From a virus, in IMG/VR virus record IMGVR_UViG_3300021963_000483, positions 1-29,494 of that record: a DNA stretch of 29,494 bases; one strand, 5' to 3'. Below the pieces are notes generated by a model, which was not told the DNA's origin, did no database searches, and saw only the letters and a list, made by a program, of their open reading frames with translations. Position numbers and translations under genes: made by a program. Shown in pieces: positions 655-26,039 of the stretch. Each line of letters begins with the position of its first letter. The stretch's first letter is position 1.

Positions 655-2433
655 TTATCGTGGGTTTATAAATCCTTCATTGGGCATATCAACGGGGCGC
701 TTTGCTACGTTTGTAGGATTGGTCTCAAGTGATACGCCCTCTGCCTTTGCCTTGTTCACACTCACCTCTGCGTTTGGGTTGCCTACATCGGGAGTTAAGC
801 CTTCGGCTTTTGCCAAGTACGTCTTACGCATCCAAAAGTGATGACACCTTGCACCGCCCTTGTAAAGCCATATTGAATAGGTTGCTGCTCCTTCAGGGCC
901 AAAGCCTGCGTTGACGGCTTGACCATCCATACGAAGTACATCCTCCTTGCGGTACACCTTGCCTGCGGCTATCATCTTCTTGCAGAACTCACGGCTATTA
1001 GATTTCTGAAGTGCTGCGGATTCGGGGGCGTAAGCATAACGAACCTTGTACCTCTTGCCTTCTTCAGTTACTCCGTCTTGGCTGCTCTTGGCGTTAGGGA
1101 ATGCGCTGCCTGTTGATGCGAATGCGTACTTGCTCAAAGCCTGCTCCGCATCGTAGTCAACGGGCCTTTCATCTACAAGCTCCCACTCATCCATATCTAC
1201 GACCTCACCCAAGATTTCAAGCTCTGCGAACATAGCATCTAAATGGTCATCGCTCGGCTCTTGGCTTGATAACTTAACGCCCGTCTCCTCCTCACGAGTC
1301 TCCATATCCATAGGCGTTACCACATCTTCCGTAAACTCTAAAGGCTGAAGGGTCTTGAAGTATAGGTTTAGGCTGATGTCGTTGTAGGCAAGAATCATAT
1401 CTATGCCGTCAATGATAATCTCCTGCTTGGGGCGAATGACAAGGTTATCCAAAAGCGTAGATGCGGTCTTTAGTTCATCAGCGTTATTGCCTAACCCCGA
1501 ATTGTCCTTGATGCCCAAGAGCATAGGACTTACGATACGATGCGAAACCATTATCTTCTGCGTGGCTTCAGCACTCAAGAATTGGTACTGCTCCGCAGCA
1601 TCCGATAACTGCACAGGGTCAACCGTTGCAGCAAGGTCTTTGTTGTCATTGAACGCAAGGATGAACTTGCCCGAATTGGAACTACCGCTAAACTTCGTTG
1701 CAATCTGCTGCTCGATGCTCCTGCGCTCTTCTTCACTCGGTACACCGTTGTTAAAGTTGATAAGCATAGAAGGCGCAAGGCCGTTCTGAATGTTGTTGAT
1801 GTGGTAGTTGGCAATCTCCTCCTCAAGCTCTGCATAGGGTAAGCCACCTTGATAGTCAACGGGTGAGTAGTAGTAGAATCCTGCTCGGTATGGTTTGATG
1901 TATAGAATCTCTAATCCCTCACGGCTCTTGCCAAATGCAGGGATGCGCACAGGTGTCTCTCTCCTGCCTTTTACGTCTTCCCAATCCTTTGCGTAGTAGT
2001 AAGCCTCAACCTCGCCATCTTCGTTGCACCTTGCGGCTCGCAGCGTCTCTACGGGTATGTGTTGTACCTCTACGATAGTGTTGTGGTCTTGTGAGTACAC
2101 CACCTGAAAAGAGCATTGCCCCATCATAACGTAATCGGCCACCACCTTCTGCAAGCAGGCTTTCGTGAACAGGCCACGCATCGCTGCGTACTCGCTCGGC
2201 TTCTTGGCAGAGTCTGATGCATCCAAGCCCTTACCAAAGGTCATATCCATCAAAGAGTTGAGGATAGCGTTGTTGGTGGGTGAGCCGTTGTAACGGTCAA
2301 TCAGATACCCGAAATAGTCGTTGTTGTCTCCGTATTCTACATAGTCCTTGCCCTGCACCTCTTTTACAACAGGTGTGGTGTAGGAACTGAAGTTCACAAC
2401 GTGGACTTTAGATGATGATGTACTCATTGTCAT
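655..2433 (-). CDS. Portal protein with C-terminal CHHFW domain
   Basis: A 592-residue protein that fits a portal, the dodecameric ring at the capsid vertex through which DNA is packaged. The first roughly 375 residues have portal-like features: an early GDNNDYFGYLIDRYNGSPTN stretch, a long mixed helical/strand middle, and a helical region with LLGIKDNSGLGNNADELKTA. The last roughly 130 residues form a separate domain with SREFCKKMIAAGKVYRKEDV, YSIWLYKGGARCHHFWMRK and several His/Cys residues that could bind metal. I know this C-terminal extension from Bacteroidota phage portals. The gene overlaps the preceding gene by 26 nt. Its 11 kb separation from the terminase is unusual. An internal ATG two codons in is an alternative start. 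Confidence 0.85.
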   Translation of the reverse strand: MTMSTSSSKVHVVNFSSYTTPVVKEVQGKDYVEYGDNNDYFGYLIDRYNGSPTNNAILNSLMDMTFGKGLDASDSAKKPSEYAAMRGLFTKACLQKVVADYVMMGQCSFQVVYSQDHNTIVEVQHIPVETLRAARCNEDGEVEAYYYAKDWEDVKGRRETPVRIPAFGKSREGLEILYIKPYRAGFYYYSPVDYQGGLPYAELEEEIANYHINNIQNGLAPSMLINFNNGVPSEEERRSIEQQIATKFSGSSNSGKFILAFNDNKDLAATVDPVQLSDAAEQYQFLSAEATQKIMVSHRIVSPMLLGIKDNSGLGNNADELKTASTLLDNLVIRPKQEIIIDGIDMILAYNDISLNLYFKTLQPLEFTEDVVTPMDMETREEETGVKLSSQEPSDDHLDAMFAELEILGEVVDMDEWELVDERPVDYDAEQALSKYAFASTGSAFPNAKSSQDGVTEEGKRYKVRYAYAPESAALQKSNSREFCKKMIAAGKVYRKEDVLRMDGQAVNAGFGPEGAATYSIWLYKGGARCHHFWMRKTYLAKAEGLTPDVGNPNAEVSVNKAKAEGVSLETNPTNVAKRPVDMPNEGFINPR

Positions 2434-2743
2434 AGCTTGTTTCTTCGGTGTACACGTTTTGGTTCACCGTAAATTTCTCGTAATCTGTTTGCGAAGTTAC
2501 AAATACCCTGTCTCGATATATTAGATCTCCTGACGCGAATACCTTCAAGCCATAGAATCTATTGTTGACAAGGGTAAAAGTGCCTGTAAGTGTCATAAAA
2601 CCATTAGCAGAGGCTGCCGTGACCGCAGGTGTTGCGGTGGTGTTTGTTGATTCATCAATCAGCGCAATCGTAACGCCCGCAGGGAACGAGCGAGGTATGA
2701 TTACAATGGCTTGTGGTGAGGCTGAAACCTGAAGGATATGCAT
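2408..2743 (-). CDS. Small structural-region protein of unknown function
   Basis: A 111-residue protein just before the portal gene, overlapping it by 26 nt. The beta-rich sequence (MHILQVSASPQAIVIIPRS at the start, then FYGLKVFASGDLIYRD) looks like a compact beta-sandwich. It resembles small conserved proteins that I associate with the head-tail region of Bacteroidota phages, but I cannot assign a role. No signal peptide or membrane segment is visible. The gene follows a hairpin terminator and a 100 nt gap, so it may begin a separate portal transcript. Confidence 0.55.
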   Translation of the reverse strand: MHILQVSASPQAIVIIPRSFPAGVTIALIDESTNTTATPAVTAASANGFMTLTGTFTLVNNRFYGLKVFASGDLIYRDRVFVTSQTDYEKFTVNQNVYTEETSYDNEYIII

Positions 2744-2780
2744 CTTAAGTAAATAACCTTTTACTTTGAATTTGTTTGAA

Positions 2781-2806
2781 AATATAAAAGGGGCTTACGC
2801 CCCTTT
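2781..2806 (-). terminator. Hairpin terminator after the paralogue pair
   Basis: A perfect 8 bp stem (AAAGGGGC / GCCCCTTT, 2787-2794 with 2799-2806) has a four-base loop. On the minus strand it is followed by a T-rich run (TATATTTTC). It lies in the 111 nt gap between the second coiled-coil paralogue and the 2408-2743 gene, the right place to end the capsid/tail transcript or reduce read-through into the portal gene. Confidence 0.7.
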
Positions 2807-2854
2807 CCCTATATTATCACTTTAGCACTTTTAAGATTTGCTAAATAAAATATA

Positions 2855-3265
2855 TTATTTTATGCTCTTTAATTTAAGATGAGCATCCTGCAAATTCTTA
2901 TCAGCTTGCTTTAACTCATTAAAGAGTTTTACAACCTCATTGTATTTAGGAACCGCAGTTGGATCAACTCCAAGTTCTTTTGCTTGTGATTCCGTATCTT
3001 GAATGGTTGATTGAATTCTTTTTAAGAAGTCATTATTTTGATTAAGAAGACTGTCATTTGCCTTAACTTGCCGTGCGGCCTGTTCAACTCCAAATGTTAA
3101 TGCGTCAAAAGCAGTTTTGCTATGTCTGGCGTTTTGAGTGCTATACTTGATTCCGTTTTCTAAAGGAACTAAAACGGAGTCTAAATTGACTTTTGCTAAC
3201 TCAACTTTTATTGTGCGAACCTCTTCACCAATCTTGGCTACTTGCGCAAAAATTTGCTTACTCAT
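2855..3265 (-). CDS. Coiled-coil paralogue 2, function unknown
   Basis: A 136-residue protein beginning MSKQIFAQVAKIGEEVR. I chose the ATG at 3265 rather than an upstream in-frame start because this N-terminus matches the neighbour at 3270-3707 at 14 of 17 residues, and it leaves a 4 nt gap instead of a large overlap. The remainder is helical, rich in Lys, Asn, Gln and Asp, and probably a coiled coil. The gene is visibly more AT-rich than the structural genes around it. Between a tail tube-like gene and the portal region it could be a minor virion or assembly protein, but nothing shows this directly. Confidence 0.6.
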   Translation of the reverse strand: MSKQIFAQVAKIGEEVRTIKVELAKVNLDSVLVPLENGIKYSTQNARHSKTAFDALTFGVEQAARQVKANDSLLNQNNDFLKRIQSTIQDTESQAKELGVDPTAVPKYNEVVKLFNELKQADKNLQDAHLKLKSIK

Positions 3266-3269
3266 TTTA

Positions 3270-3707
3270 TTAAACTTTTTTATCAATCGTTTGTGCGTTG
3301 ATGTTTTTGATTGCCGTAAAGCCGTCAAGCACCTTTCCCATATCATCTAATTTTTTATCTAATACTGAAGCTTTTGGAAAATCATTAAAAGACATATTAA
3401 GTTCTTTTAGTTTAGTTAAAAGATTTTTTAAGTATGCCTCCGAATCACGAACTGTTTTTAAAGTTTCAGAGTAAAATCCTCCGCTAAAAGAAGCAATTCT
3501 GTTTAATTCTTTAGCAAGCGCATTAAACTCGTTTATTTTTTGATTAGCGTCAGTGGCTAATTGATTTAAATTTGAGGACTTTTGGTCTAACAAATTAATA
3601 AAACTTTGTAAATCCTCTTGAACTCCTAACTCCACACGCATCGGTTCTTGAGCCTCACGCACCTCTGCGCCAATCTTGGCGATTTGAGCGAATATATGTT
3701 TACTCAT
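3270..3707 (-). CDS. Coiled-coil paralogue 1, function unknown
   Basis: A 145-residue protein starting MSKHIFAQIAKIGAEVR, nearly the same N-terminus as the next gene. After about residue 30 it is a long, probably coiled-coil helix. A Gly-rich break (SFSGGFYSE) interrupts it about halfway. The two genes look like a tandem duplication in which only the N-terminal segment stayed similar, so that segment may be an attachment peptide. AT-rich compared with the flanking capsid and tail genes. It lies just after a hairpin that follows the tail tube-like gene. Function not recognised. Confidence 0.6.
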   Translation of the reverse strand: MSKHIFAQIAKIGAEVREAQEPMRVELGVQEDLQSFINLLDQKSSNLNQLATDANQKINEFNALAKELNRIASFSGGFYSETLKTVRDSEAYLKNLLTKLKELNMSFNDFPKASVLDKKLDDMGKVLDGFTAIKNINAQTIDKKV

Positions 3708-3711
3708 CGTG

Positions 3712-3738
3712 TAAATATAAGGGGGCTTGCACCCCCCT
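3712..3738 (-). terminator. Hairpin between the tail tube-like gene and the paralogue pair
   Basis: A 6 bp GC stem (AGGGGG / CCCCCT, 3720-3725 with 3733-3738) is followed on the minus strand by TTATATTTAC. It fills the 38 nt gap between two genes and may act as a partial terminator or stabilise a transcript end. The T-tract is interrupted, so termination would be weaker than at the capsid hairpin. Confidence 0.5.
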
Positions 3739-3745
3739 AATTCAT

Positions 3746-4309
3746 TTAAGAGTTAGAACCCTTAACAATTACCGCAGATGCGTTAACCCCTGCAAATGGA
3801 TTGGCAGCAGTTGAGCCATCCAAGAAGTTGGCAGGAGTTACCTCTTGCCCTTCCATTGTCAAAGTGTAACCCGATAGGTCACCCATTGCAGCACCTGTTA
3901 CAATCGTTCCACCCGTAACTTCAGCACCATTCAAGCGACCCATCATAAATGTGTTGCCGTTGTAGTCTGTTACGAAAACGTAAGGACGTCCGTAAGCAAG
4001 CAATTTTAGCTGCTTGTTATCAGTCTTGCTCAACTTGGTTAAAGTCAAGTTCAAGGTTTGAGTGAAGAAGGTAGTACCATTCTCACGGCTTGAGTTAAAG
4101 GTTTGCTCAAAAGAGCTATTTCCTTTCAAGTCATACTCAAATCCCGAAAATATACCACTTGATGCAGTTCCGCTAATGCTCGCAATGGAGTCATCGGCAG
4201 TAAGCACTACGGGCTTCAAAGCATCGTAATTGACGAAGATTACATTAGTAATCCCACCTACTACGTCTTTACACGGCAACGCTCTGCCTAAAGTAATGTC
4301 ACACGCCAT
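3746..4309 (-). CDS. Probable major tail tube protein
   Basis: A 187-residue beta-rich protein starting MACDITLGRALPCKDVVGGI. It is rich in Thr, Ser, Gly and Asn, with alternating hydrophobic strands such as TQTLNLTLTKLS and YVFVTDYNGNTFMMGRL, as expected for a tail tube subunit or another small virion protein. The size suits tail tube proteins (about 150-250 residues). Strong hairpins before and after the gene suggest separate, high expression, as for an abundant virion protein. It directly follows the capsid gene. The alternative is a capsid decoration protein; the sequence alone does not decide. Confidence 0.5.
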   Translation of the reverse strand: MACDITLGRALPCKDVVGGITNVIFVNYDALKPVVLTADDSIASISGTASSGIFSGFEYDLKGNSSFEQTFNSSRENGTTFFTQTLNLTLTKLSKTDNKQLKLLAYGRPYVFVTDYNGNTFMMGRLNGAEVTGGTIVTGAAMGDLSGYTLTMEGQEVTPANFLDGSTAANPFAGVNASAVIVKGSNS

Positions 4310-4332
4310 TGTTTCTTTGTTTTATTAGAATT

Positions 4333-4366
4333 AAAAAAGGGGGCGAGGACATAGCCCAAGCCCCCC
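4333..4366 (-). terminator. Strong hairpin terminator after the capsid gene
   Basis: The minus strand has a GGGGGC / GCCCCC stem (4339-4344 with 4360-4365) with a 15 nt loop, followed at once by six T residues. This is a standard intrinsic terminator layout directly after the major capsid gene and before the tail tube-like gene. Confidence 0.75.
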
Positions 4367-4387
4367 TATGATTTACGTTAACTCGGA

Positions 4388-5314
4388 TTAAGAGTAAAGA
4401 ACAACGTCAGCTCCGATACCATACTGAACTCCTGCGAAGAAGCGTAGGATAACACGGATGTTGTCTGAACCGTCAAGGTCAGCCATATCAAGGACACGCA
4501 CTTCGTTGCGCTCGTTCAGAAGCCCTGTTCCGAAGAACATATTGCTTGCTTGAGCAGCTACCATCTTGTTAGAAGGAAGACCGTTACACATAACAACCTT
4601 GATGCCATCGAAGAACAAGTCTCCATTGCCGTACCAAGTAGTGCCTTTGTTGTCAACACCATTCGCTCCAAGACCTGAAGTTCCGAATCCACCAAGAGCG
4701 CGGACATAAGCCTTTGCTACGTTTTGTGGAACGAAGATTTGAAGGTCTTCCTTGCCGTAAAGGGCAGCAGGAATAGCATCTACAACTTTGCCAAGCTCGG
4801 TGATTACGTTAGCAGCAGTCACGGTGGTGGCAGTTACGTCAATAACATCAGAGTCAGCAGTCATCAAAGAAAGGAATCCGCTGAACTCACCTGCACTTGC
4901 GGCAGTTCCGTTCCAAATGTTCTGCTCAATCTTCTGTGAAGTCTTGGCAGCAACGTGGGCGATAAGGAAGTCAGCGAAAGAAGCAGGGATGCTATCGTAA
5001 GCAGAGAAACCCATTTGACCACCAACCCAAGAGTCGTAGTAGTCCTTTTTGCAAAGCTGCAAGTTCACTTGGAATGGCTCAACCTCAAGGATGCGGTCGG
5101 TCAAAGTCAAGGTAGAAGTTGCATCAAAGTCGCAAGTAGCATCACGAACAATAGAGTCGGTGTTAACCTTCTGAAGTGTGGTGCGGTAGTTTACGTTTGG
5201 AAGAATCTCAATGAGTCCTTTGTCAAGCGTGTTAGCAGAAAGTAATGCAGCAGAGATGTACTTGCTCGCAAACGCTCCTGCGTAGTTTGTAGTGATTGAA
5301 GTGGTCGTAGCCAT
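4388..5314 (-). CDS. Major capsid protein
   Basis: A 308-residue protein that fits a major capsid protein. The N-terminus (MATTTSITTNYAGAFASKYI) is followed by ILPNVNYRTTLQKV and VNLQLCKKDYYDSWVGGQMG, then a helix with FADFLIAHVAAKTSQKIEQNIWNG, and late strands ending YGIGADVVLYS. This pattern recalls short HK97-fold capsid proteins of Bacteroidota phages. Position supports it: directly after a scaffold-like gene, one gene after the protease, and closed by a strong terminator. An A-rich leader rather than a Shine-Dalgarno sequence precedes the ATG, as in highly expressed Bacteroidota genes. No separate N-terminal delta domain is obvious. Confidence 0.75.
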   Translation of the reverse strand: MATTTSITTNYAGAFASKYISAALLSANTLDKGLIEILPNVNYRTTLQKVNTDSIVRDATCDFDATSTLTLTDRILEVEPFQVNLQLCKKDYYDSWVGGQMGFSAYDSIPASFADFLIAHVAAKTSQKIEQNIWNGTAASAGEFSGFLSLMTADSDVIDVTATTVTAANVITELGKVVDAIPAALYGKEDLQIFVPQNVAKAYVRALGGFGTSGLGANGVDNKGTTWYGNGDLFFDGIKVVMCNGLPSNKMVAAQASNMFFGTGLLNERNEVRVLDMADLDGSDNIRVILRFFAGVQYGIGADVVLYS

Positions 5315-5326
5315 TTTTTATATTTA

Positions 5327-5908
5327 TTATTTGTTGATTCGTGCAAGGACTCGGTCAATCGCTCTTTCGGGGCGGTTAGAACTCATCTTTTGGACTTGCT
5401 TTGTTTCGGGGTTGTGCTTGATGGCTTTAGCCGCAGGTGCAGCAGATAGTTCAGCCTTGATAGCTGACATCTCCTCCTTCTTGGCGTATGAACCCATCTC
5501 CTCACGCATTGCTTTCATCTCCTCACGCATCATTGCTACTTCCTCGAGAACTTTCTCGATGACTGCAACAACCGCAGGGGCTTCTTCTTTTACCTCTACC
5601 TCTGCGAGTTCTACCTCTGCTTCGGGGGCTTCAACTTCTACCTCTACTTCAGTTTCGGCAGCAGCTTCTTTAATTTCAGCGATTACGCCTTCTTCTTCGA
5701 TGACCAAAATACGGCCATCAGCAAGTAGGTGTTCGCCAATCGGAGCAGCAACTCGGTCTTCGCCACTAATGACAAATACTTCGTTACCTGCTTCAAATGA
5801 TTCAGCCTCAAGAACGGCTCCGTTCTCAAGGGTCATTTGCTCGAACTTAACCTCACGGATGGAGGACAGTTCGGCAAGGATGCGGTTTAGGATATTGTTT
5901 GCTTTCAT
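5327..5908 (-). CDS. Probable scaffold protein (acidic coiled coil)
   Basis: A 193-residue protein just before the capsid gene. Residues 1-75 form a small globular part (EVFVISGEDRVAAPIGEHLL). They are followed by a low-complexity Glu/Ala/Val stretch (about 78-118) and then a heptad-like helix (MMREEMKAMREEMGSYAKKEEM) to about 155. The C-terminus is basic (NRPERAIDRVLARINK). Acidic, helical and with a basic tail, it has the build of a capsid scaffold, whose tail binds the coat protein. The place between protease and capsid genes fits. The assignment rests on composition and context, not on a recognised family. Confidence 0.6.
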   Translation of the reverse strand: MKANNILNRILAELSSIREVKFEQMTLENGAVLEAESFEAGNEVFVISGEDRVAAPIGEHLLADGRILVIEEEGVIAEIKEAAAETEVEVEVEAPEAEVELAEVEVKEEAPAVVAVIEKVLEEVAMMREEMKAMREEMGSYAKKEEMSAIKAELSAAPAAKAIKHNPETKQVQKMSSNRPERAIDRVLARINK

Positions 5909-5948
5909 ATCTAACTAATTAAAGGGGTTTTGATTATTTGTAACATTT

Positions 5949-6173
5949 TTATAGGTCTTGCCATAGCGTATTTGTGGACTCCCATCGGGTGTTGATGGTC
6001 TGCCACTCCTCGCCGCGTATCTTAACGCTTGTGCCTTGACCTACTAACGAGCCTACTCCTTGCGCCTGCAATGAGCCATCGCAGCAGTTGGACTTGTAGG
6101 TGTTGTCTTTGCACAAGCATCCACGCCTACCACCTCTCGGGGATGCAATAGGGAGTTTCATTGGTCTATACAT
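5949..6173 (-). CDS. Small Cys-rich protein of unknown function
   Basis: A 74-residue protein between the protease and scaffold-like genes, overlapping the protease end by 8 nt. It has a compact Cys cluster (GCLCKDNTYKSNCCDGSLQAQGVG, split here as GCLCKDNTYKS then NCCDGSLQAQGVG) after a basic Arg/Gly stretch. The same Cys pattern is familiar to me from small proteins in Bacteroidota phage head regions, with no known role. Four cysteines in about 15 residues could bind a metal. A second ATG at codon 5 is an alternative start. Confidence 0.55.
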   Translation of the reverse strand: MYRPMKLPIASPRGGRRGCLCKDNTYKSNCCDGSLQAQGVGSLVGQGTSVKIRGEEWQTINTRWESTNTLWQDL

Positions 6174-7098
6174 TCCCGAGTTCTTTTAATTTAGACTCTG
6201 CCCAACGCTTGCCTGCAAGACCGCCCCATAGTAGGAACGATATTGTACCACAGGCTTGGGTGTCATTCTCATCGTAGTATTCTTCGGCTCTTGATAGGTA
6301 TGAGTACATCCGTGTGATTGTCTCTACGCTCACAGGCTTGCCCTGTGCGAGCTGCTGCGCTCTTACCTTACCGACAGGTGTTGCACACTTGTTGCCGTTC
6401 TTCTCATTTAGTTCAATGCCACGCTTGGCGTTATTGCGTACGGCTTCGGGGTAATCGGTAAACGATTCCATCTCGGTGCGTGTTCCCGTCTTCTTACGGC
6501 CATCCCTTTTGATGATAGCGACAATCTGCGCAAGCATCAACGCTGCTTCCTGCTCCTCAAGGTGTGCCATCTCTTGCTTGGCAAGGTTTAGCTTGTCCAC
6601 AAAATACCCCTCAATGCTAAAGCCTTTGACCTTTCCCGTCTTGACAAAGTTTGTCCAAATCTCGGGGTTGTTGACTTTCATAGAAACCATCCACGTTCCA
6701 ACAGGCAAATCAAAGCCGTACTTCTTGCTCTTGTCTTGTACGTCATCTTCGATAATCCACGACTCTACAACCGTGAGGCCGTTGATGCCTACTTCGTGTT
6801 CAAGCGTAGCGTTGTTCTGCTTGGACTTCTGAAAGAACATCTCGCTTGCTTTGCGGATGGTGGCTTCGCTGAAGTACACATAGAACTCCTCCTGCCCTTC
6901 GGCTCGGTAGATGGGTTTGTTTGGTACGAGTGCTGCTCCCATAAGGATGCGCTTCTCATCGCTCTGCGTAGCGAACTCAACCCGTTGTGAGTTGAGTGCA
7001 ATAAAGTCCTCCTCAATCGCAGGGTATTCTACAAGGGAGATTGCATCAATGCCCGTAAGGAGCATTGATTCATCAAGTATTAGTTCAATCAGTTTCAT
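6166..7098 (-). CDS. Prohead protease (XkdF-like) with C-terminal helical domain
   Basis: A 310-residue protein. I place the start at the ATG at 7098, one base after the tape measure stop codon, because an upstream reading would overlap that gene by about 65 nt. Residues 50-170 match the XkdF-type phage serine protease pattern: ILMGAALVPNKPIYR, FYVYFSEATI, NNATLEHEVGI with likely catalytic His101, and KVKGFSIEGYF with likely Ser161. Such enzymes cleave scaffold and capsid proteins during head maturation. The last 95 residues (SFTDYPEAVRNNAKRGIELN onwards) form an extra domain I have seen attached to phage head proteins, with unknown role. It precedes the scaffold-like and capsid genes, as expected. 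Confidence 0.75.
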   Translation of the reverse strand: MKLIELILDESMLLTGIDAISLVEYPAIEEDFIALNSQRVEFATQSDEKRILMGAALVPNKPIYRAEGQEEFYVYFSEATIRKASEMFFQKSKQNNATLEHEVGINGLTVVESWIIEDDVQDKSKKYGFDLPVGTWMVSMKVNNPEIWTNFVKTGKVKGFSIEGYFVDKLNLAKQEMAHLEEQEAALMLAQIVAIIKRDGRKKTGTRTEMESFTDYPEAVRNNAKRGIELNEKNGNKCATPVGKVRAQQLAQGKPVSVETITRMYSYLSRAEEYYDENDTQACGTISFLLWGGLAGKRWAESKLKELGNV

Positions 7099-7099
7099 A

Positions 7100-8659
7100 T
7101 TATCCAAAGGTTGCGGTTCGTATGCGTCTGCGGTCAAGCTCTGTTCCCGAAATAACCTCGCCACTTACAACGTAGGCTTTCATAGGCTTTTGGAATTGAG
7201 CCGCGAGGCTTTCTACTAAGATGTTGTTTCCACTACGAGAAACGAGGTTAAATTGAGCAGGTTGAGGTGGCGCTTGAATAGAGGTGCTTCCGCTATAAGA
7301 CGCACCGCCTCCCGAAGGTTGAAACTGTGTGCTTTTGATTGTTGCTACCTGTGCCAAGCCTGTGGCTAAAGCAATACCTGCCTTAACAAAGTTAGCACCC
7401 GTTAGAGCATCCTGTGGAACTGCGAGCTGCGCCGTAACTGCTGCGGCGGTAGCAGCGATGGCAGAGGCTAATTGAAGTGCTTTGTTGACTTGAAACGCTC
7501 GCTCTGCGCTTTGCTCGTTGTCAGAGTTTAGCGCGGTGTACAAATCACCAAGCGCAGAGAATGATTGTGCCGTGAGGTCAAACCCTTGTTGTGTTGCTTC
7601 GATTCTTGCTTGCTGAATTTGACGCTCATTATCCTCTACGAACAAACGATAGTCACGCTCAATCTGCTCTTTTTCTGCGAGCGCTTGTTGGTAGGCTACG
7701 GAGTCAGCATCGTAAAGAGCCAACGTTTTATTTAGACGCGCAGTCTCGTTTTGGAATATCAATTCTTGAAAGTAAGCCTCTGTCTGTAACTTATCCGCTT
7801 GAGTGCGTTGGAATGCAACGTTTTGCTGCTTTTCAAACTCAAAGCGTGATGTTTCTGCATTAGATAAAATTTGCTCAATATCCAAACGCTCACGAGCGAG
7901 GGCAAGGTTGTTTGCTAAAAACTCCGACTCTTGACCGCGCAGGCGTTCTTGGATGTCAAGCTGCTCGGTAAGGGCTTGCTCAAGGGCGACCTGATTCTCA
8001 ATGTTATCAATGCGGCCTACCTCAGCTTGTGCTGCCGCAATCTTTACATTTACCGCTGCCTGCTCCGCAGCAAGTTGCTCTTTTAGAATTTCATTTAGGT
8101 TCTCGTTTGCCGCTTCGCGCTCGGACAGGCTATTGCGCTCATCATCGCGAATCTGACGCTGCTCCTCTGCAAGAATTTGATATTGGAACTGAAGTTTGAT
8201 GCGCTGCACCTCTGCAAGCTGCGCCAACTTTTGCAGTTCAACAAGCTGCTTCGCTTGGTCAAGTACTCCCGTAAACGCCTCACGCAAACTCTTTTTGCCA
8301 CCCGTAAAATACTCTACCAAGTTGCTTACCAAAAGCTGCGCTGCAAACAATCCCGTGTTTAGTACATCAACAACCTTTTGGTTTTGCGTAAACGCTTCGC
8401 TTGCTGCATCGGTTAGTTTGGTGATAACGCCAAGAGCCGTAATGTTTTTGATTAGGCTTTTAATTCCCTCACCCGTCTTCTTTACCTCTTTCTCTACACC
8501 CTTTACAGAGGCTTCGGCCTTGTCAAACGATTTCTCGGCAGTAGTACCTACGGTCTTGACATTCTTATTGAGGTCTTTTACCTCCTCATTGATTTGGTTG
8601 ACGGTTTGCTCGAAGTCACTACCATCAGCCTCAATCTTAATTGTTTCTACTACTGCCAT
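7100..8659 (-). CDS. Tail tape measure protein
   Basis: A 519-residue protein with the layout of a tape measure: an N-terminal VVETIKIEADGSDFEQTVNQ segment, a long Gln/Glu/Ala-rich coiled coil (about residues 125-370, with many AEEQRQIRDDERNSLSER-type heptads), and hydrophobic helices (LASAIAATAAAVTAQL, AGIALATGLAQVATI at about 385-445). At about 1.5 angstrom per residue it would set a tail near 75-80 nm, suitable for a siphovirus. It lies among the tail genes but straight before the prohead protease, so the tail and head modules abut here. The start codon overlaps the stop of the 45-residue gene before it. Confidence 0.75.
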   Translation of the reverse strand: MAVVETIKIEADGSDFEQTVNQINEEVKDLNKNVKTVGTTAEKSFDKAEASVKGVEKEVKKTGEGIKSLIKNITALGVITKLTDAASEAFTQNQKVVDVLNTGLFAAQLLVSNLVEYFTGGKKSLREAFTGVLDQAKQLVELQKLAQLAEVQRIKLQFQYQILAEEQRQIRDDERNSLSEREAANENLNEILKEQLAAEQAAVNVKIAAAQAEVGRIDNIENQVALEQALTEQLDIQERLRGQESEFLANNLALARERLDIEQILSNAETSRFEFEKQQNVAFQRTQADKLQTEAYFQELIFQNETARLNKTLALYDADSVAYQQALAEKEQIERDYRLFVEDNERQIQQARIEATQQGFDLTAQSFSALGDLYTALNSDNEQSAERAFQVNKALQLASAIAATAAAVTAQLAVPQDALTGANFVKAGIALATGLAQVATIKSTQFQPSGGGASYSGSTSIQAPPQPAQFNLVSRSGNNILVESLAAQFQKPMKAYVVSGEVISGTELDRRRIRTATFG

Positions 8660-12655: not shown

Positions 12656-13123
12656 TTAGCAGACGCTGATTTCGGTGTTAGCAAGCAGCACGTCAAACGT
12701 AGCAGTCCATCCCGCAAGCAGGTTCTCGAACCTCTCGCTGAAGGGAACGCAAGAGGCAGTACCATCCAACTGATAAAGGTCGGTGTACAGAGTACCCCTT
12801 CGCAGTTCAGTCACCACATCGTTGATGACCGCAAGCTGCGTGTTTAGAATGTTCTGCTCGTTGCTTGTGCCGTAGAACGGCTCTGCCTGTAAGCGTGGGT
12901 TCTCTTTGGTTTCATCTACCAAGTCCATACAAACGATGCTTACATTCATCCGTACTATTTGTCCTTCAAATGTTGCTTGGTTCACAATGATATGCGACAG
13001 AGGAAAGATGGTCTGCTTGTTTAGGTCAATGTCGAATATATCGCCTGTCGTTACCACGTTCACTTGGCTGTTGGCCTCAAGGGTATCTTTTAGTTTGGTG
13101 GTGATGTCGTAGAACTGTCTCAT
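12656..13123 (-). CDS. Tail terminator/neck-like protein, tentative
   Basis: A 155-residue protein starting MRQFYDITTKLKDTLEANSQ with an alternating strand pattern (FPLSHIIVNQATFEGQIVRMNVSIVCMDLV) that resembles the alpha/beta fold of tail terminator proteins. It lies between the tail chaperone frameshift region and the gp10-like gene, a usual place for a tail terminator. Four cysteines and no membrane segment. The assignment is from shape and context only. Confidence 0.45.
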   Translation of the reverse strand: MRQFYDITTKLKDTLEANSQVNVVTTGDIFDIDLNKQTIFPLSHIIVNQATFEGQIVRMNVSIVCMDLVDETKENPRLQAEPFYGTSNEQNILNTQLAVINDVVTELRRGTLYTDLYQLDGTASCVPFSERFENLLAGWTATFDVLLANTEISVC

Positions 13124-13850
13124 TTCTTTAGTTTTTCAATTTGCTTTCTTTCAACTTCTCCTTTTTCTTTGTCAAACGTGAGAAGGGTGAGGCATTGGTG
13201 AACGCCCAATCCTCCAATTTCTTGAAAGGCTCTGATGTCGCCTTTAGCGAGGTGATAAAACGATGAATACCATCCCCATTTTCTTCCAAACTGCGATTCA
13301 GTTGAGTATTCGTTTTCGGGTTCTCCAAAGAGCGTGTCGTAGCGTTCAACAAGTCGTTTCCTAAACGATAAAAAAAAAGCGTCGCTCCTAACACAACATC
13401 CATCGGGGCTTGCTTCATTACGTCGCAATACTTCAGCGCGGACTCGTACGGCTCTATCTCATACCGCTTGCCGATTACATTTGTAACGGGTCGGTAAAGA
13501 ACCGCCATCGTCTTGTGAAAATCAGCGGTATCACTCATATAGTTATCCAAATCTACATACTCCCCAAAGGTTATGTCTTCGAGGTTGGGTATGAACCCGA
13601 AGGTTTGGTTGCCAATGGTGAACTTGTGCTTGAGCGATGGCTTATCGCCGAACATTCCGTTCAGTCGGTTCACTACCCCTGCAAGGCTTTTAAACTTTAC
13701 GTTTGGCAACTTGGCAAGAGGCACTCCGCAGAATATCTCAAGCATCTTGTGGCTCAGAAACTCTTCGTCGCCTTCCAAGCGCACAAAGCGTTGGTATTGG
13801 TCAAGCGTGATCTCTGATAGGGCGGTGGGTACAATTACCTTTAGTTCCAT
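13120..13850 (-). CDS. Tail assembly chaperone, predicted -1 frameshift product
   Basis: The predicted product shares 160 residues with the zero-frame protein, then shifts at T TTT TTT (13377-13371) and continues in the -1 frame for 83 residues, to 243 in total. The -1 frame encodes a convincing domain: SQFGRKWGWYSSFYHLAKGD, then IGGLGVHQCLTLLTFDKEKG and a basic end. I know this WGWY pattern as a separate small protein following the chaperone in related phages. Tail chaperones commonly make a short and a frameshifted form, of which the extended form binds the tape measure. Here both forms have nearly the same length. A wrong homopolymer length in the assembly would also give this picture. Confidence 0.6.
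13128..13850 (-). CDS. Tail assembly chaperone, zero-frame product
   Basis: A 240-residue protein, the first gene after the large terminase. The N-terminal part (ITLDQYQRFVRL, ITFGEYVDLDNYMSD, MAVLYRPVTNV, YEIEPYESALKYC, MDVVLGATLFFYRLGNDLL) is of a type common in Bacteroidota phages next to tail genes and best explained as a tail assembly chaperone. The C-terminus is a Lys-rich tail after ENGDGIHRFITSLKATSEPF. A run of nine T residues lies at codons 158-161 and can move ribosomes into the -1 frame (separate entry). Both frames stay open for more than 80 codons after it. The position far ahead of the tape measure gene is somewhat unusual. Confidence 0.6.
   Translation of the reverse strand: MELKVIVPTALSEITLDQYQRFVRLEGDEEFLSHKMLEIFCGVPLAKLPNVKFKSLAGVVNRLNGMFGDKPSLKHKFTIGNQTFGFIPNLEDITFGEYVDLDNYMSDTADFHKTMAVLYRPVTNVIGKRYEIEPYESALKYCDVMKQAPMDVVLGATLFFYRLGNDLLNATTRSLENPKTNTQLNRSLEENGDGIHRFITSLKATSEPFKKLEDWAFTNASPFSRLTKKKEKLKESKLKN
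13371..13377 (-). promoter_or_regulatory. Slippery heptamer for -1 ribosomal frameshifting
   Basis: In the chaperone reading frame the codons are CTT TTT TTT TAT, so T TTT TTT fits the X XXY YYZ slippery pattern exactly. After a -1 slip the next codon is TTA at 13371-13369 and the new frame stays open to 13120. No clear stem-loop is evident right after it by eye, though I could not fold it. Confidence 0.6.
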
Positions 13851-13871: not shown

Positions 13872-15032
13872 TTAGCGTATGGCATACCTGCCAAAGTTAG
13901 GCCTGCTGAGTTTGTTGTAGGTGGCATAGCGAAGAGCATCGATTGCGTGGTTAAAGGCATCGATGGGTTTATTAAGCAGGTTTCCGTTTTTGTCTTCCAC
14001 CCATTTGTAGTTCTGAAGTTCCTTGATTAGGTTGCTGCTTCGTGGTGTTACGAATAGCTTATGTCGCTTCAGCACGTCAATACCCACTATGATGCTATCT
14101 GAACCCTTCTGAGTAGGTTTTACATTCCATCCCATGCGATGCAGCTCCTCGATGCTTTTGGGTTCAGCAGAGTCAGCAAATACCTCAGTACGTCTGTCAA
14201 GGCCAAGTGATGCAAGAACATTACCGATATCGGGATTTGTCATACCCGTTCTGTAGATCAGCTCATCCACATAAAGATTGTCTCCTGACTTATAAACCGC
14301 AACAAGAGCCGTGGGATCGTTCGTGTAACCGAAGTCCATCCCGTGACATAGGAGCGTGGCATCGCTTGGTATCTCTGCCTGCCCGTATTGGAAGATGGTG
14401 GCTCTGCTCATACCACGTTCTCCGAGTCCGTAGATTCTCCAATAGTCGTTATCCGTATGTTGCAGCCTTTCTATCTCCTCAACGATTGAGGCATCCAAGA
14501 ACGGATTGTCGAGGTAGGTGGATTGGATGTAGGTAACGTCATCCCTTGTGAGTAGCTTGTCGTAAATCCAATGGAACGCATCAGAGGGGTTGTAGTCAAC
14601 CCATATCTTGCCTGTGGTACGAATCAAGAGCTGAAAGAAATCCTCCCAAGTAAGTTCGTTTGCCTCGTTGCAGAATAGGTAGTCACGTCTTGCTCCCCGT
14701 TTCTTCTGCGGTTGGTCAAGGCTGATGAACTCAAAGAGGTTGCCATTTAGCTCGTAGGTGTAGTCGCTCTTGTTATGCCGTGCTTCATCGTACAGATTGT
14801 TCGCATTTAGGATTTCAAAGAAGTCACGGTAGGCCGTCATCTTTAGAGATGGCAGCGACTTGCGCACGATAGAATACACCTTGCCGCGATCCTCCATCGC
14901 CATCACGATGAGCATCTGCAAAAGCGAGTAGGTCTTACCCGAACGGCTGCCGCCTTGATTGACTACTATCCGAGTTGGGGCGGTGTAGTTCTTTTCAAAG
15001 AGTTCGCTACTCTTGATGTTTAGCTCGGACAA
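13872..15032 (-). CDS. terL: Terminase large subunit (PBSX-like)
   Basis: A 386-residue DNA-packaging motor. The ATPase domain has Walker A GGSRSGKT (residues 27-34) and a Walker B-like YLFCNEANE (118-126). The C-terminal RNase H-type nuclease domain has acidic residues in HGMDFGYTNDPTA (Asp233), VFADSAEP (Asp287) and FNHAIDALRYA (Asp365), which would bind two metal ions. The only start between the upstream in-frame stop and the Walker A site is a TTG at 15032, overlapping the small subunit by 26 nt, which suggests translational coupling. The family resembles the PBSX/Terminase_3 type. It is followed directly by the tail chaperone and not by a portal gene. Confidence 0.93.
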   Translation of the reverse strand: MSELNIKSSELFEKNYTAPTRIVVNQGGSRSGKTYSLLQMLIVMAMEDRGKVYSIVRKSLPSLKMTAYRDFFEILNANNLYDEARHNKSDYTYELNGNLFEFISLDQPQKKRGARRDYLFCNEANELTWEDFFQLLIRTTGKIWVDYNPSDAFHWIYDKLLTRDDVTYIQSTYLDNPFLDASIVEEIERLQHTDNDYWRIYGLGERGMSRATIFQYGQAEIPSDATLLCHGMDFGYTNDPTALVAVYKSGDNLYVDELIYRTGMTNPDIGNVLASLGLDRRTEVFADSAEPKSIEELHRMGWNVKPTQKGSDSIIVGIDVLKRHKLFVTPRSSNLIKELQNYKWVEDKNGNLLNKPIDAFNHAIDALRYATYNKLSRPNFGRYAIR

Positions 15033-15337: not shown

Positions 15338-15598
15338 CTAAATAACTCTTTTAGCAAGGTGGTGATTGTGTGTTGCTTGAAGTCGCTCTTTCCATTGCTT
15401 AATATCGCCATAAGCAACGTGGCAATTACGGCAGAGGGCCATTAGGTTTTCTATGGTATCAGCAATTTTGCTTCCACCCATCCCACGAGATTCGATGTGG
15501 TGGATGTCAACCGCAGTACCTCCACAGACTTCGCAGGGTATGAAGTCAGTTGTGGAGTAGCCCATCCCTTTGAGATAGACCTTTGTGTGGTTTTTCAC
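15338..15598 (-). CDS. HNH endonuclease
   Basis: An 86-residue HNH nuclease. Two Cys pairs (Cys22/25 and Cys56/59) would hold a structural zinc, and the catalytic core is VDIHHIESRG (Asp31, His33, His34) with Asn51 and His60. The GTG at 15598 overlaps the methyltransferase stop (GTGA) and gives the N-terminus MKNHTKVYLKGMGYSTTDF, which matches what I recall for this family; a TTG at 15613 is the alternative. HNH proteins next to terminase genes are often part of cos-type packaging, and this one is just upstream of terS. A free-standing homing role is less likely for such a short, conserved gene in this order. Confidence 0.8.
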   Translation of the reverse strand: MKNHTKVYLKGMGYSTTDFIPCEVCGGTAVDIHHIESRGMGGSKIADTIENLMALCRNCHVAYGDIKQWKERLQATHNHHLAKRVI

Positions 15599-16122
15599 CT
15601 TTGGTAAATCCAACAGTCATCAATGAACCAAGCACGGGGCAGCAGTTCATCTACGGCTTGGATTACTCCCTTCCAATTCTCGTGGTAGTCATCTCCTGCG
15701 ATGAAGCCTCCCTTCTTTACTTTAGGTAGCCACAGCTTGATGTCTTCCTTTACCGCCTCATAGGTATGGGTGAGGTCTATGAATACCACGTCAAGGGATT
15801 CCTTGAGAAACATTTTTGCAGCTACTTTGGATTCTCCTTTGATTACATTGTACTTGCGCTCACCCATATTCTCTAAGAACAGGTCATAGATGTCTATCTC
15901 CGTTGCGAGCTTGTGGGTGGTTGTGAGTTCGTTTGGTGAACCCTTCCAAGAATCAATGATTGTGATGTTTTGGTGTGTTGCTTTGTCGCATAGGTAGGCC
16001 GATGACTTCCCGAGCCACGCCCCCAACTCTACGAACGTGCCGTCTTCAGGCATATTGGCAAGGAGGTAGTCGTATGCTGCTTGGTGGTTGAACCACCCGT
16101 CTATGTCTTTTGAAGCTTTCAT
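15595..16122 (-). CDS. Class I SAM-dependent methyltransferase
   Basis: A 175-residue methyltransferase, complete Rossmann core. Motif I is TFVELGAWLGKS (29-40, binds SAM), an acidic residue ends the second strand (ITIIDSWKG, Asp57), and FIDLTHTYEAVKEDIKLW with GGFIAGDDY follows, as in the Methyltransf_24 type that often acts on sugars or small molecules. There is no DPPY/NPPF or Cys-catalytic motif, so it is not a typical DNA base methyltransferase. The ATG at 16122 overlaps the previous stop (ATGA). It is coupled with two glycosyltransferase genes, suggesting O-methylation of a sugar. Substrate is unknown. Confidence 0.8.
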   Translation of the reverse strand: MKASKDIDGWFNHQAAYDYLLANMPEDGTFVELGAWLGKSSAYLCDKATHQNITIIDSWKGSPNELTTTHKLATEIDIYDLFLENMGERKYNVIKGESKVAAKMFLKESLDVVFIDLTHTYEAVKEDIKLWLPKVKKGGFIAGDDYHENWKGVIQAVDELLPRAWFIDDCWIYQR

Positions 16123-16646
16123 CGTAATGCGTTGTAATAACAAAGATACTGCTCTACGCAGATAAGTGTTCCTTGTTCGGATGCTGCTTGGGCAAAGGTG
16201 CCATCTGCCTCATACGTCATTTCAAAGCGTAGGTTGGGCAGGTCGTATGGCTTAAACATATAACAGGCGGTGTCTATGTTGCCGACTTGTGGTTGGTCGG
16301 TAGGGCGTAGCCTACCTACTTGCCCCCACGTTACGATTGAGCAATCAAGTCCGTTTAGGTTGTTCCACTCTTCAAGGAACTTTGGGTGCAGCACGTTATC
16401 ATCATCCAGATAATAGACCCAATCCTCTTTGGTAAAGGAATCAGCATACAAGTCAAGAAACTCATTGCGTAGTGGGTTGCCCATATCCCCCGTGCGGGTG
16501 GAGTAATGTGTGATTGATGCGCTTGTTGCTCCCTTGAAGTCGCAATTTGCGTCTATCATCACCACCCACGTTGCATAGGCAGGGATATGCTGTTTTAGCC
16601 TTACGAGGTTGTGAGGTCGTGAGCAGGGCGTAACTATGTAAAGCAT
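16119..16646 (-). CDS. GT-A glycosyltransferase-like protein
   Basis: A 175-residue protein with the start of a GT-A fold (MLYIVTPCSRPHNLVRL) and a metal-binding acidic motif, WVYYLDDDNVLHPKF (Asp81-83), as in family 2-like enzymes. It transfers sugars from nucleotide-sugar donors. It is short for the family (usually 230 or more), which suggests a minimal catalytic domain, as found in phages. It overlaps the GT-B gene by 13 nt. Acceptor unknown: candidates are DNA bases, virion proteins or a host glycan. Confidence 0.7.
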   Translation of the reverse strand: MLYIVTPCSRPHNLVRLKQHIPAYATWVVMIDANCDFKGATSASITHYSTRTGDMGNPLRNEFLDLYADSFTKEDWVYYLDDDNVLHPKFLEEWNNLNGLDCSIVTWGQVGRLRPTDQPQVGNIDTACYMFKPYDLPNLRFEMTYEADGTFAQAASEQGTLICVEQYLCYYNALR

Positions 16647-17572
16647 CGCAGTTCGTTTATTTTCTCCATCGTGAAGTCCTGCACATACTCGTATAACGAT
16701 TCTGTTAGGTCAGCAACTTGGTTAGGGTTTTCACTTAGCCTCTTGATTGCTCCTGCCCATTCGCTTGGGTGCTTGATGGCAATGCAGTTCTCTTTGGTGA
16801 TATAGGGTGAATAGGGTTGTGTGTTGCTCACTATCAAAGCGCACTTGCTAAACCCCGCCTCAAGCATCTTTAGGTGCGACTTGCACTTGGCAAACTCTGA
16901 ACCACTTAATGGCACAAGGCTAACGTCAAAGTAATTGTAGAGCTTGTGATAGTGTGTTGGTGGCATCGGGGGCAGCTTGTAGCTTGCCCTCATTATTTCA
17001 GGGTACCCATCCACTTCTGCAACATAGCTTTGATAGCCTTCAAGGTTGATTGTGGACTCTCTAACATCTGCGGCGTGGTGGTTGCCTCCGATATAACCAA
17101 AGCGCACTTCTTCGCTTGGCTCTCTCTCTACCTGCCACGTTGGCACGCTGATGGCATTGGGAATGATTCGGATGTTGGTATTGTACTTCTTGACCTTTGA
17201 GGCAAGGTGCTTGTTTGTCACCCATACCTCATCCGCTGCTTTCATAGAGCGGATAATCTTCATCTTCATTTGAGCTGAATATACCCCAAGCAGAGGATGG
17301 GTAGGAGGCAGCACCCACCAATCATCGTTATCAACAATTAGCTTGATGCCCTCCTTACGGCAGAGCTTTACAAAGTCATCAAAGGGCTCAACGGGGAATA
17401 CCCGTGACGTGAAGATGTGAGTAACCTTCGGCCATATCTCAGGTTCAATGTCAGTAATCTTCTCAATAAAAAAGACATCTACATCCTTGTGGCATATCAA
17501 GGGTGCAAATGTCCTGTGGTGTGATACACCCGAGTTCTGCTTGTGGAAGGCAAGCACAAAGGGTCTAATCAT
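16634..17572 (-). CDS. GT-B glycosyltransferase (GT4-like)
   Basis: A 312-residue protein with a two-domain GT-B layout. The N-terminal half has VTHIFTSRVF, KLIVDNDDWWVLPPTHPLL and ADEVWVTNKHLASKV; the hinge is IRIIPNAISV; the C-terminal half has VRFGYIGGNHHAADV and KCKSHLKMLEAGFSKCALIVSN, where the Lys and Glu of such a segment bind the sugar nucleotide in GT4-type enzymes. The C-terminus closes with a long helix, usual for these folds. The start overlaps the preceding gene by 4 nt. Together with the GT-A and methyltransferase genes it forms a translationally coupled trio. Confidence 0.75.
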   Translation of the reverse strand: MIRPFVLAFHKQNSGVSHHRTFAPLICHKDVDVFFIEKITDIEPEIWPKVTHIFTSRVFPVEPFDDFVKLCRKEGIKLIVDNDDWWVLPPTHPLLGVYSAQMKMKIIRSMKAADEVWVTNKHLASKVKKYNTNIRIIPNAISVPTWQVEREPSEEVRFGYIGGNHHAADVRESTINLEGYQSYVAEVDGYPEIMRASYKLPPMPPTHYHKLYNYFDVSLVPLSGSEFAKCKSHLKMLEAGFSKCALIVSNTQPYSPYITKENCIAIKHPSEWAGAIKRLSENPNQVADLTESLYEYVQDFTMEKINELRCFT

Positions 17573-20862: not shown

Positions 20863-20915
20863 GATTGGTATTAAATGTTCTACAAATATATAACAAATTA
20901 TTTAATTACTAACAA
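20863..20915 (-). promoter_or_regulatory. Promoter and start element for the 20.8 kb gene group
   Basis: TATATTTG (20883-20890) is a perfect -7 box. A TTG (20913-20915) lies 22 nt upstream, at the long end of the usual spacing. The element AATACCAATC (20863-20872, one mismatch to AAAACCAATC) ends 2 nt before the ATG. An intrinsic terminator just upstream separates it from the previous operon, so a new transcript beginning here is very plausible. Confidence 0.65.
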
Positions 20916-20921
20916 CACAAC

Positions 20922-20947
20922 AAAAAAAAAGAGGACTACTTGTCCTC
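20922..20947 (-). terminator. Intrinsic terminator
   Basis: GAGGAC / GTCCTC form a perfect 6 bp stem (20931-20936 with 20942-20947) with a 5 nt loop, followed on the minus strand by nine T residues. The stem overlaps the stop codon of the 45-residue gene. It closes the sigma factor/nuclease operon. Confidence 0.85.
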
Positions 20948-26009: not shown

Positions 26010-26039
26010 TTTATTTCTTTTTTTTTACAAGTTGAATAG

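Follow-up and report, generated by a model that had tools for sequence, protein, structure and literature searches.

The sequence analysed, hereafter called the window, comprises the 29,494 bases of a virus record in IMG/VR, and the genes and domains named below lie on its minus strand. A zero-frame ORF of 240 aa occupies positions 13128–13850 and contains a run of nine T's (T9; 13370–13378), around which the minus strand reads GCG ACG CTT TTT TTT TAT CGT. The run includes a heptamer, T TTT TTT, at 13371–13377 in zero-frame phase. Codons 1–160 (13850–13371) are common to the two predicted products. After the run, the zero frame stays open for 80 codons (to 13128) and the −1 frame for 83 codons. 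The −1 frame, which would be entered by the shift, encodes a helical domain of 83 aa followed by a stop codon (13120–13371; LSFRKRLVERYD...KWGWYSSFYHLAKGD...), and the −1 fusion product therefore has 160 + 83 = 243 aa and ends at the TGA at 13122–13120. The heptamer coordinates, the two ends and the product lengths given in an earlier note on this DNA were all correct. In the first ∼22 codons past the run (13305–13370), there is constraint in both frames: the zero frame reads YRLGNDLLNAT.., the end of a helix, the −1 frame reads LSFRKRL.., and the hexamer TTTAGG encodes L-G in the former and F-R in the latter alike. The remaining zero-frame tail (13128–13304) is stop-free, and its amino acids are little constrained. 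The +1 frame is closed two codons past the run by a TAG (13361–13363), and a stop two codons after the run was present in 180 of 207 relatives. The next gene (12656–13123; phrog_30964, unknown function) begins with an ATG that shares bases with the −1 stop codon, TGA (AAATGA), an arrangement consistent with translational coupling. Directly upstream of the frameshift gene is the gene for the large terminase (13872–15032; Pfam Terminase_3 and Terminase_3C), and four genes separate the frameshift gene from a probable tape measure gene (7100–8659; phrog_1506, tail length tape measure, E 5.5e-5).

Relatives were gathered by scans with the whole protein, the N-terminal part and the −1 domain, and the isolate Nonlabens phage P12024L was added. 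The 325 unique relatives of the conservation set had been selected independently of the T run and fell into 25 clusters at 50% identity; loci picked by the T run were excluded from the conservation counts. Scans of bacterial and archaeal genomes returned no relatives in the first case and two in the second, on MAG contigs of 29–36 kb. These two contigs (L443 and L444), labelled Pseudooceanicola and Euryarchaeota, are the sole relatives from the bacterial and archaeal genome collection and are probably misbinned phage contigs. The host of the phage is probably a member of Bacteroidota.

The run was found in all 325 unique relatives, as T9 in 277, T10 in 45 and T11 in 3, and none was shorter. 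The sole unique sequence without the run in the last set of relatives is cut by the contig end. Conservation of nine A's or nine T's among homologues is a published criterion for functional slippage (PMC1088944), and here an A/T run of at least nine, conserved in length, was present in 325/325 homologues. The earlier note had left room for doubt about the T9 count; because the run is conserved and also occurs in an isolate, Nonlabens phage P12024L, a sequencing error is excluded in practice. The reading of the run as a functionless chance homopolymer or assembly artefact, which the AT-richness of the genomes would favour, is refuted by this conservation, and the open −1 domain of near-constant length and the T9 of the isolate also speak against it.

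The codon phase of the run was 1 in 244 relatives, 2 in 26 and 0 in 55. In terms of the phase INDEPENDENCE, the numbers of T's (5′,3′) outside two invariant Phe codons were (2,1) in 212 relatives, (2,2) in 32, (1,2) in 10, (1,3) in 13, (1,4) in 3 and (3,0) in 55. The sum of the T's flanking this FF core was never below three, and a loss of T's on one side was matched by a gain on the other. In phases 1 and 2, the residue after FF was W, Y, S, C, F or L, all of which had T-initial codons, and in phase 0, in which three TTT codons already provide nine T's, it was mostly V or I. The protein variants at the run were accordingly V/L-FF-W/Y/S/C, S-FF-F, N/T/G-FF-L and F-FF-V/I. Based on the varied flanking T counts, we regard these variants as different solutions of one DNA rule, namely at least nine T's. 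When the 3′ T counts were permuted among the 25 clusters, all runs were at least nine in 3 of 200,000 trials, and with 10 clusters (40% identity) this was so in 6,504 of 200,000 (p ∼ 0.03), the permutation being approximate because the clusters are related to each other. The ORFs of 150 aa or more at these loci add up to 1.216 Mb; runs of at least nine T's occurred 264 times at this site vs. 4 times elsewhere, and the run far exceeds what chance would give. The conserved element is the length of the homopolymer, independent of codon phase, which fits slippage by a polymerase. The other nine-T runs of the window, at 20922–20930 and 26018–26026, are both outside large ORFs. The former (window 20900–20945, minus strand) follows a short hairpin, GGACAAGTAGTCC, between large ORFs, and looks like an intrinsic terminator.

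The two C-terminal ends differed in their conservation. The −1 tail was 74–97 aa long in 319 of 321 relatives. In two relatives, L581 and L602, T9 is present, the downstream frame is broken and the −1 tail has 12 and 57 codons, respectively; the breaks may reflect either true variation or errors in sequencing. The zero tail had 20–88 codons in 205 relatives, to which the broken sequence L602 is additional. Substitution rates were determined per opportunity from 72 close pairs. Past zero-frame codon 22, changes that alter the zero frame and are silent in the −1 frame had a rate of 0.0294, vs. 0.0337 in the single-coded −1 sequence beyond the zero-frame stop, silent changes in the N-terminal part had a rate of 0.0537, and changes altering the −1 frame had a rate of 0.0065–0.0082. 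These rates indicate that the −1 frame encodes a conserved protein under purifying selection and that the later part of the zero frame is subject to little sequence constraint. The openness of the zero frame was examined in 90 representatives by synonymous re-draws of the −1 codons, with control frames included. It was open beyond expectation at p < 0.05 in 57% of the representatives, vs. 6–7% in control frames. The zero-frame stops differed in 7 of the 72 pairs, and none of these differences fell before codon 59. From these comparisons, selection is seen to keep the zero frame stop-free, likely either so that ribosomes on the common U9 message would travel near the next start codon or so that a long, loose tail would be kept.

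These results bear on the claim that about 250 nt encode two genuine domains, overprinted and compressed from two separate genes. The excess openness of the zero frame and the constraint on both frames in the first ∼22 codons agree with such a history, and the −1 WGWY domain is indeed conserved. Past these codons, however, the zero-frame end contains no conserved domain: its residues are near-free to change and drift, and its stop moves widely among relatives, although selection does keep this end open. The motif ENGDGI, previously taken for part of a known domain, proved to be the KWGWY codons read out of phase, and in the Nonlabens phage, NGDGI appears in the zero frame only past two stop codons. 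Nor did we find a relative in which separate, non-overlapping genes encode the two parts; the overlap with the T run was present in every relative, and even P12024L_40/_41, annotated as two genes, has T9 and an open −1 frame. We therefore consider overprinting of two domains very unlikely and the idea of a compressed gene pair mistaken.

Frameshifting in the chaperone genes of tailed phages is, in textbooks, a conserved ribosomal shift. The ribosomal heptamer requires just seven T's in one phase, and a stimulatory structure or an upstream Shine-Dalgarno sequence is common, not obligatory, for −1 frameshifting at such a site. The corresponding reading of this locus is a classical −1 ribosomal frameshift on T TTT TTT in the style of lambda G/GT, with a minority of ribosomes re-pairing both Phe tRNAs one base back and continuing in the −1 frame. 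The heptamer conforms to X XXY YYZ in zero-frame phase and lies in phase within the run of every relative, and ribosomal shifting is therefore possible everywhere; moreover, the tail chaperone frameshifts in the literature are ribosomal (PMC5009743). However, the position of the heptamer within the run differs among the (2,1), (1,x) and (3,0) classes, in which the ribosome does not require the T's that lie beyond it, and although seven T's would suffice, the runs always have at least nine, with extra T's whose side depends on the lineage and which compensate for each other. Furthermore, in the phase-1 class, a change of T8 to C would be silent in both proteins (TTT to TTC in the zero frame, TTR to CTR in the −1 frame), yet it was never seen. 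A search for conserved RNA structure downstream of the run gave a mean z of 0.05 in 60 representatives, and Shine-Dalgarno-like sites near the run were in no excess (9 of 63, vs. 13.5% in shuffled sequences); the heptamer was thus accompanied by neither kind of conserved stimulator. In the window itself, a 6-bp hairpin adjoining the run (TCGTTT-AGG-AAACGA) was rejected as a stimulator since it is absent in relatives (GGACTTTAGGAAACG), and an AGGAG upstream of the run was rejected because it is not conserved. Ribosomal frameshifting at the heptamer is possible in our view, although doubtful.

Because runs of at least nine T's occur in all phases with compensation, the heptamer needs only seven, and no Shine-Dalgarno sequence or structure is conserved, we favor slippage by RNA polymerase. 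The locus is probably one gene from which RNA-polymerase slippage at the nine T's yields two proteins identical over their N-terminal 160 residues. The RNA:DNA hybrid has been reported to be nine nt long, and insertions in homopolymers to be predominantly of a single base (PMC5574713). In the proposed mechanism, an RNA polymerase, assumed to be that of the host, with an RNA:DNA hybrid of about nine base pairs, would slip on T9 and make some messages with ten U's. The U9 message would be translated normally into the 240-aa zero-frame protein. One inserted U corresponds exactly to the −1 frame, and the U10 message would therefore yield the 243-aa form, which carries the conserved WGWY domain; translation of messages with U8 or U11 would terminate at the stop two codons further on. 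The tape measure protein may be the binding partner of the shared part, and the WGWY form may serve as a minor adaptor in the recruitment of tail subunits. We infer that the polymerase rather than the ribosome slips, and the ratio of the products and the role as a chaperone are likewise inferred. Thus, a programmed −1 shift that swaps one C-terminus for another of similar length in a tail-module gene, as suggested in the earlier note, is supported in this clade, whereas the ribosome, which that suggestion implied, is probably not the main mechanism, given the phase-independent run of at least nine T's.

A further reading is that the locus is phase-variable, with changes in the length of the DNA run switching the C-terminus between virions. 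T9 runs are mutable, and the broken frames of L581 and L602 (2/321 relatives) might be taken as its traces; however, in no relative did the run length fuse the −1 domain in frame at the DNA level, and where the run is T10 or T11, codon changes rather than insertions account for the intact zero frame. Phase variation is therefore even more improbable than the overprinting discussed above.

With respect to the protein itself, the shared part was predicted to be a compact alpha/beta domain (AlphaFold pLDDT 90, residues 1–172) and the −1 domain to be helical (pLDDT 86.5); the Nonlabens row was excluded from the structure predictions. All 54 members tested matched phrog_32199. Searches of the PDB by sequence and by fold gave no match, and the fold relatives of the shared part were uncharacterised phage proteins only. 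Weak matches of single members to Pfam were obtained for Phage_TAC_7 (E 0.042) and Phage_p2_ORF12 (E 0.029), 2 of 54 members matched phrog_166, “tail protein” (4.9e-5), and one Foldseek match was named tail assembly chaperone (E 0.03). A chaperone of the lambda type binds the tape measure and tail tube proteins and is absent from the virion. Two products that share an N-terminus through a −1 shift, as in such chaperones, are indicated here at the sequence level by the conserved overlapping −1 domain, and the direct upstream adjacency to the tape measure gene that textbooks describe was not found. Because of the weak matches, the position between the terminase and tape measure genes and the two-form layout, our best guess, which we consider quite likely, is that the gene encodes a tail assembly chaperone.

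The functional model for a two-form tail chaperone is lambda G/GT (PMC5009743). The present gene resembles it in its shared N-terminus, −1 shift, alternative C-terminus, location in the tail module and overlapping next gene. It differs from lambda G/GT in having a long T run in place of a short heptamer, in its lack of detectable sequence homology and in not lying beside the tape measure gene. Because the shift occurs 80 codons before the zero-frame stop, the result is a swap, unlike the extension in lambda G/GT; in the SEA-PHAGES set, the mean distance from shift to stop was 26 nt (PMC10885494). Transcriptional slippage in dnaX of Thermus thermophilus and in IS elements (PMC1088944, PMC5009743) likewise involves conserved 9A/9T and alternative frames that lead to defined products; here, in comparison, the T run lies in a phage tail-module gene, spans 25 clusters of a virus family and is linked to a conserved −1 domain. 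In Shigella spa13 (PMC5009743), transcriptional slippage also gives a product with another C-terminus from a coding sequence that overlaps the next gene, but that gene belongs to a bacterial secretion system and its C-terminus is extended, whereas that of the phage gene is exchanged. Nonlabens phage P12024L 40/41 (JQ823123) has a homologous gene (31% identity) with the same T9, a WGWY −1 domain and the same place after the large terminase, but it is annotated as two genes and its zero frame ends 25 codons past the run. Flavobacterium phage 6H gp10 has an N-terminal part of similar fold (Foldseek E 1.3e-5) but no T9 at the matching place, where the longest T run is T6. This gene (L445 10040–10967) seemingly has two frame changes near its C-terminus and contains T TTT TTC, and the changes may represent another type of recoding or a sequence error.

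In a literature search that covered papers outside subscription, we found no described case in which transcriptional slippage is linked to a tail assembly chaperone. What would be new here is the expression of a G/GT-like gene driven by a phase-independent T run. It may well be that a whole phage family, probably of Bacteroidota, makes both forms of its tail chaperone by programmed RNA-polymerase slippage on at least nine T's, not by ribosomal frameshifting, with a second frame that is open and has no conserved domain. If so, the host RNA polymerase would determine the isoform ratio on which tail assembly depends, and the fusion would be overlooked in hundreds of genomes by gene finders that seek heptamers or split the gene. 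Run length that is independent of phase also provides a clean comparative test that separates polymerase slippage from ribosomal slippage.

Two observations concern the wider window. In the order of the genes, the terminase is followed by the tail genes, the tape measure gene, a head protease gene (6166–7164), a probable capsid gene (4388–5314) and a portal gene (655–2433), the last part of this series covering 655–8659 on the minus strand, and the tail genes thus precede the head genes. Upstream of the terminase genes (15338–17572, minus strand) are an HNH-like gene, a methyltransferase-like gene (phrog_2675) and two glycosyltransferase-like genes, one of which is phrog_7162 (16634–17572), which together form an odd set within a packaging module.
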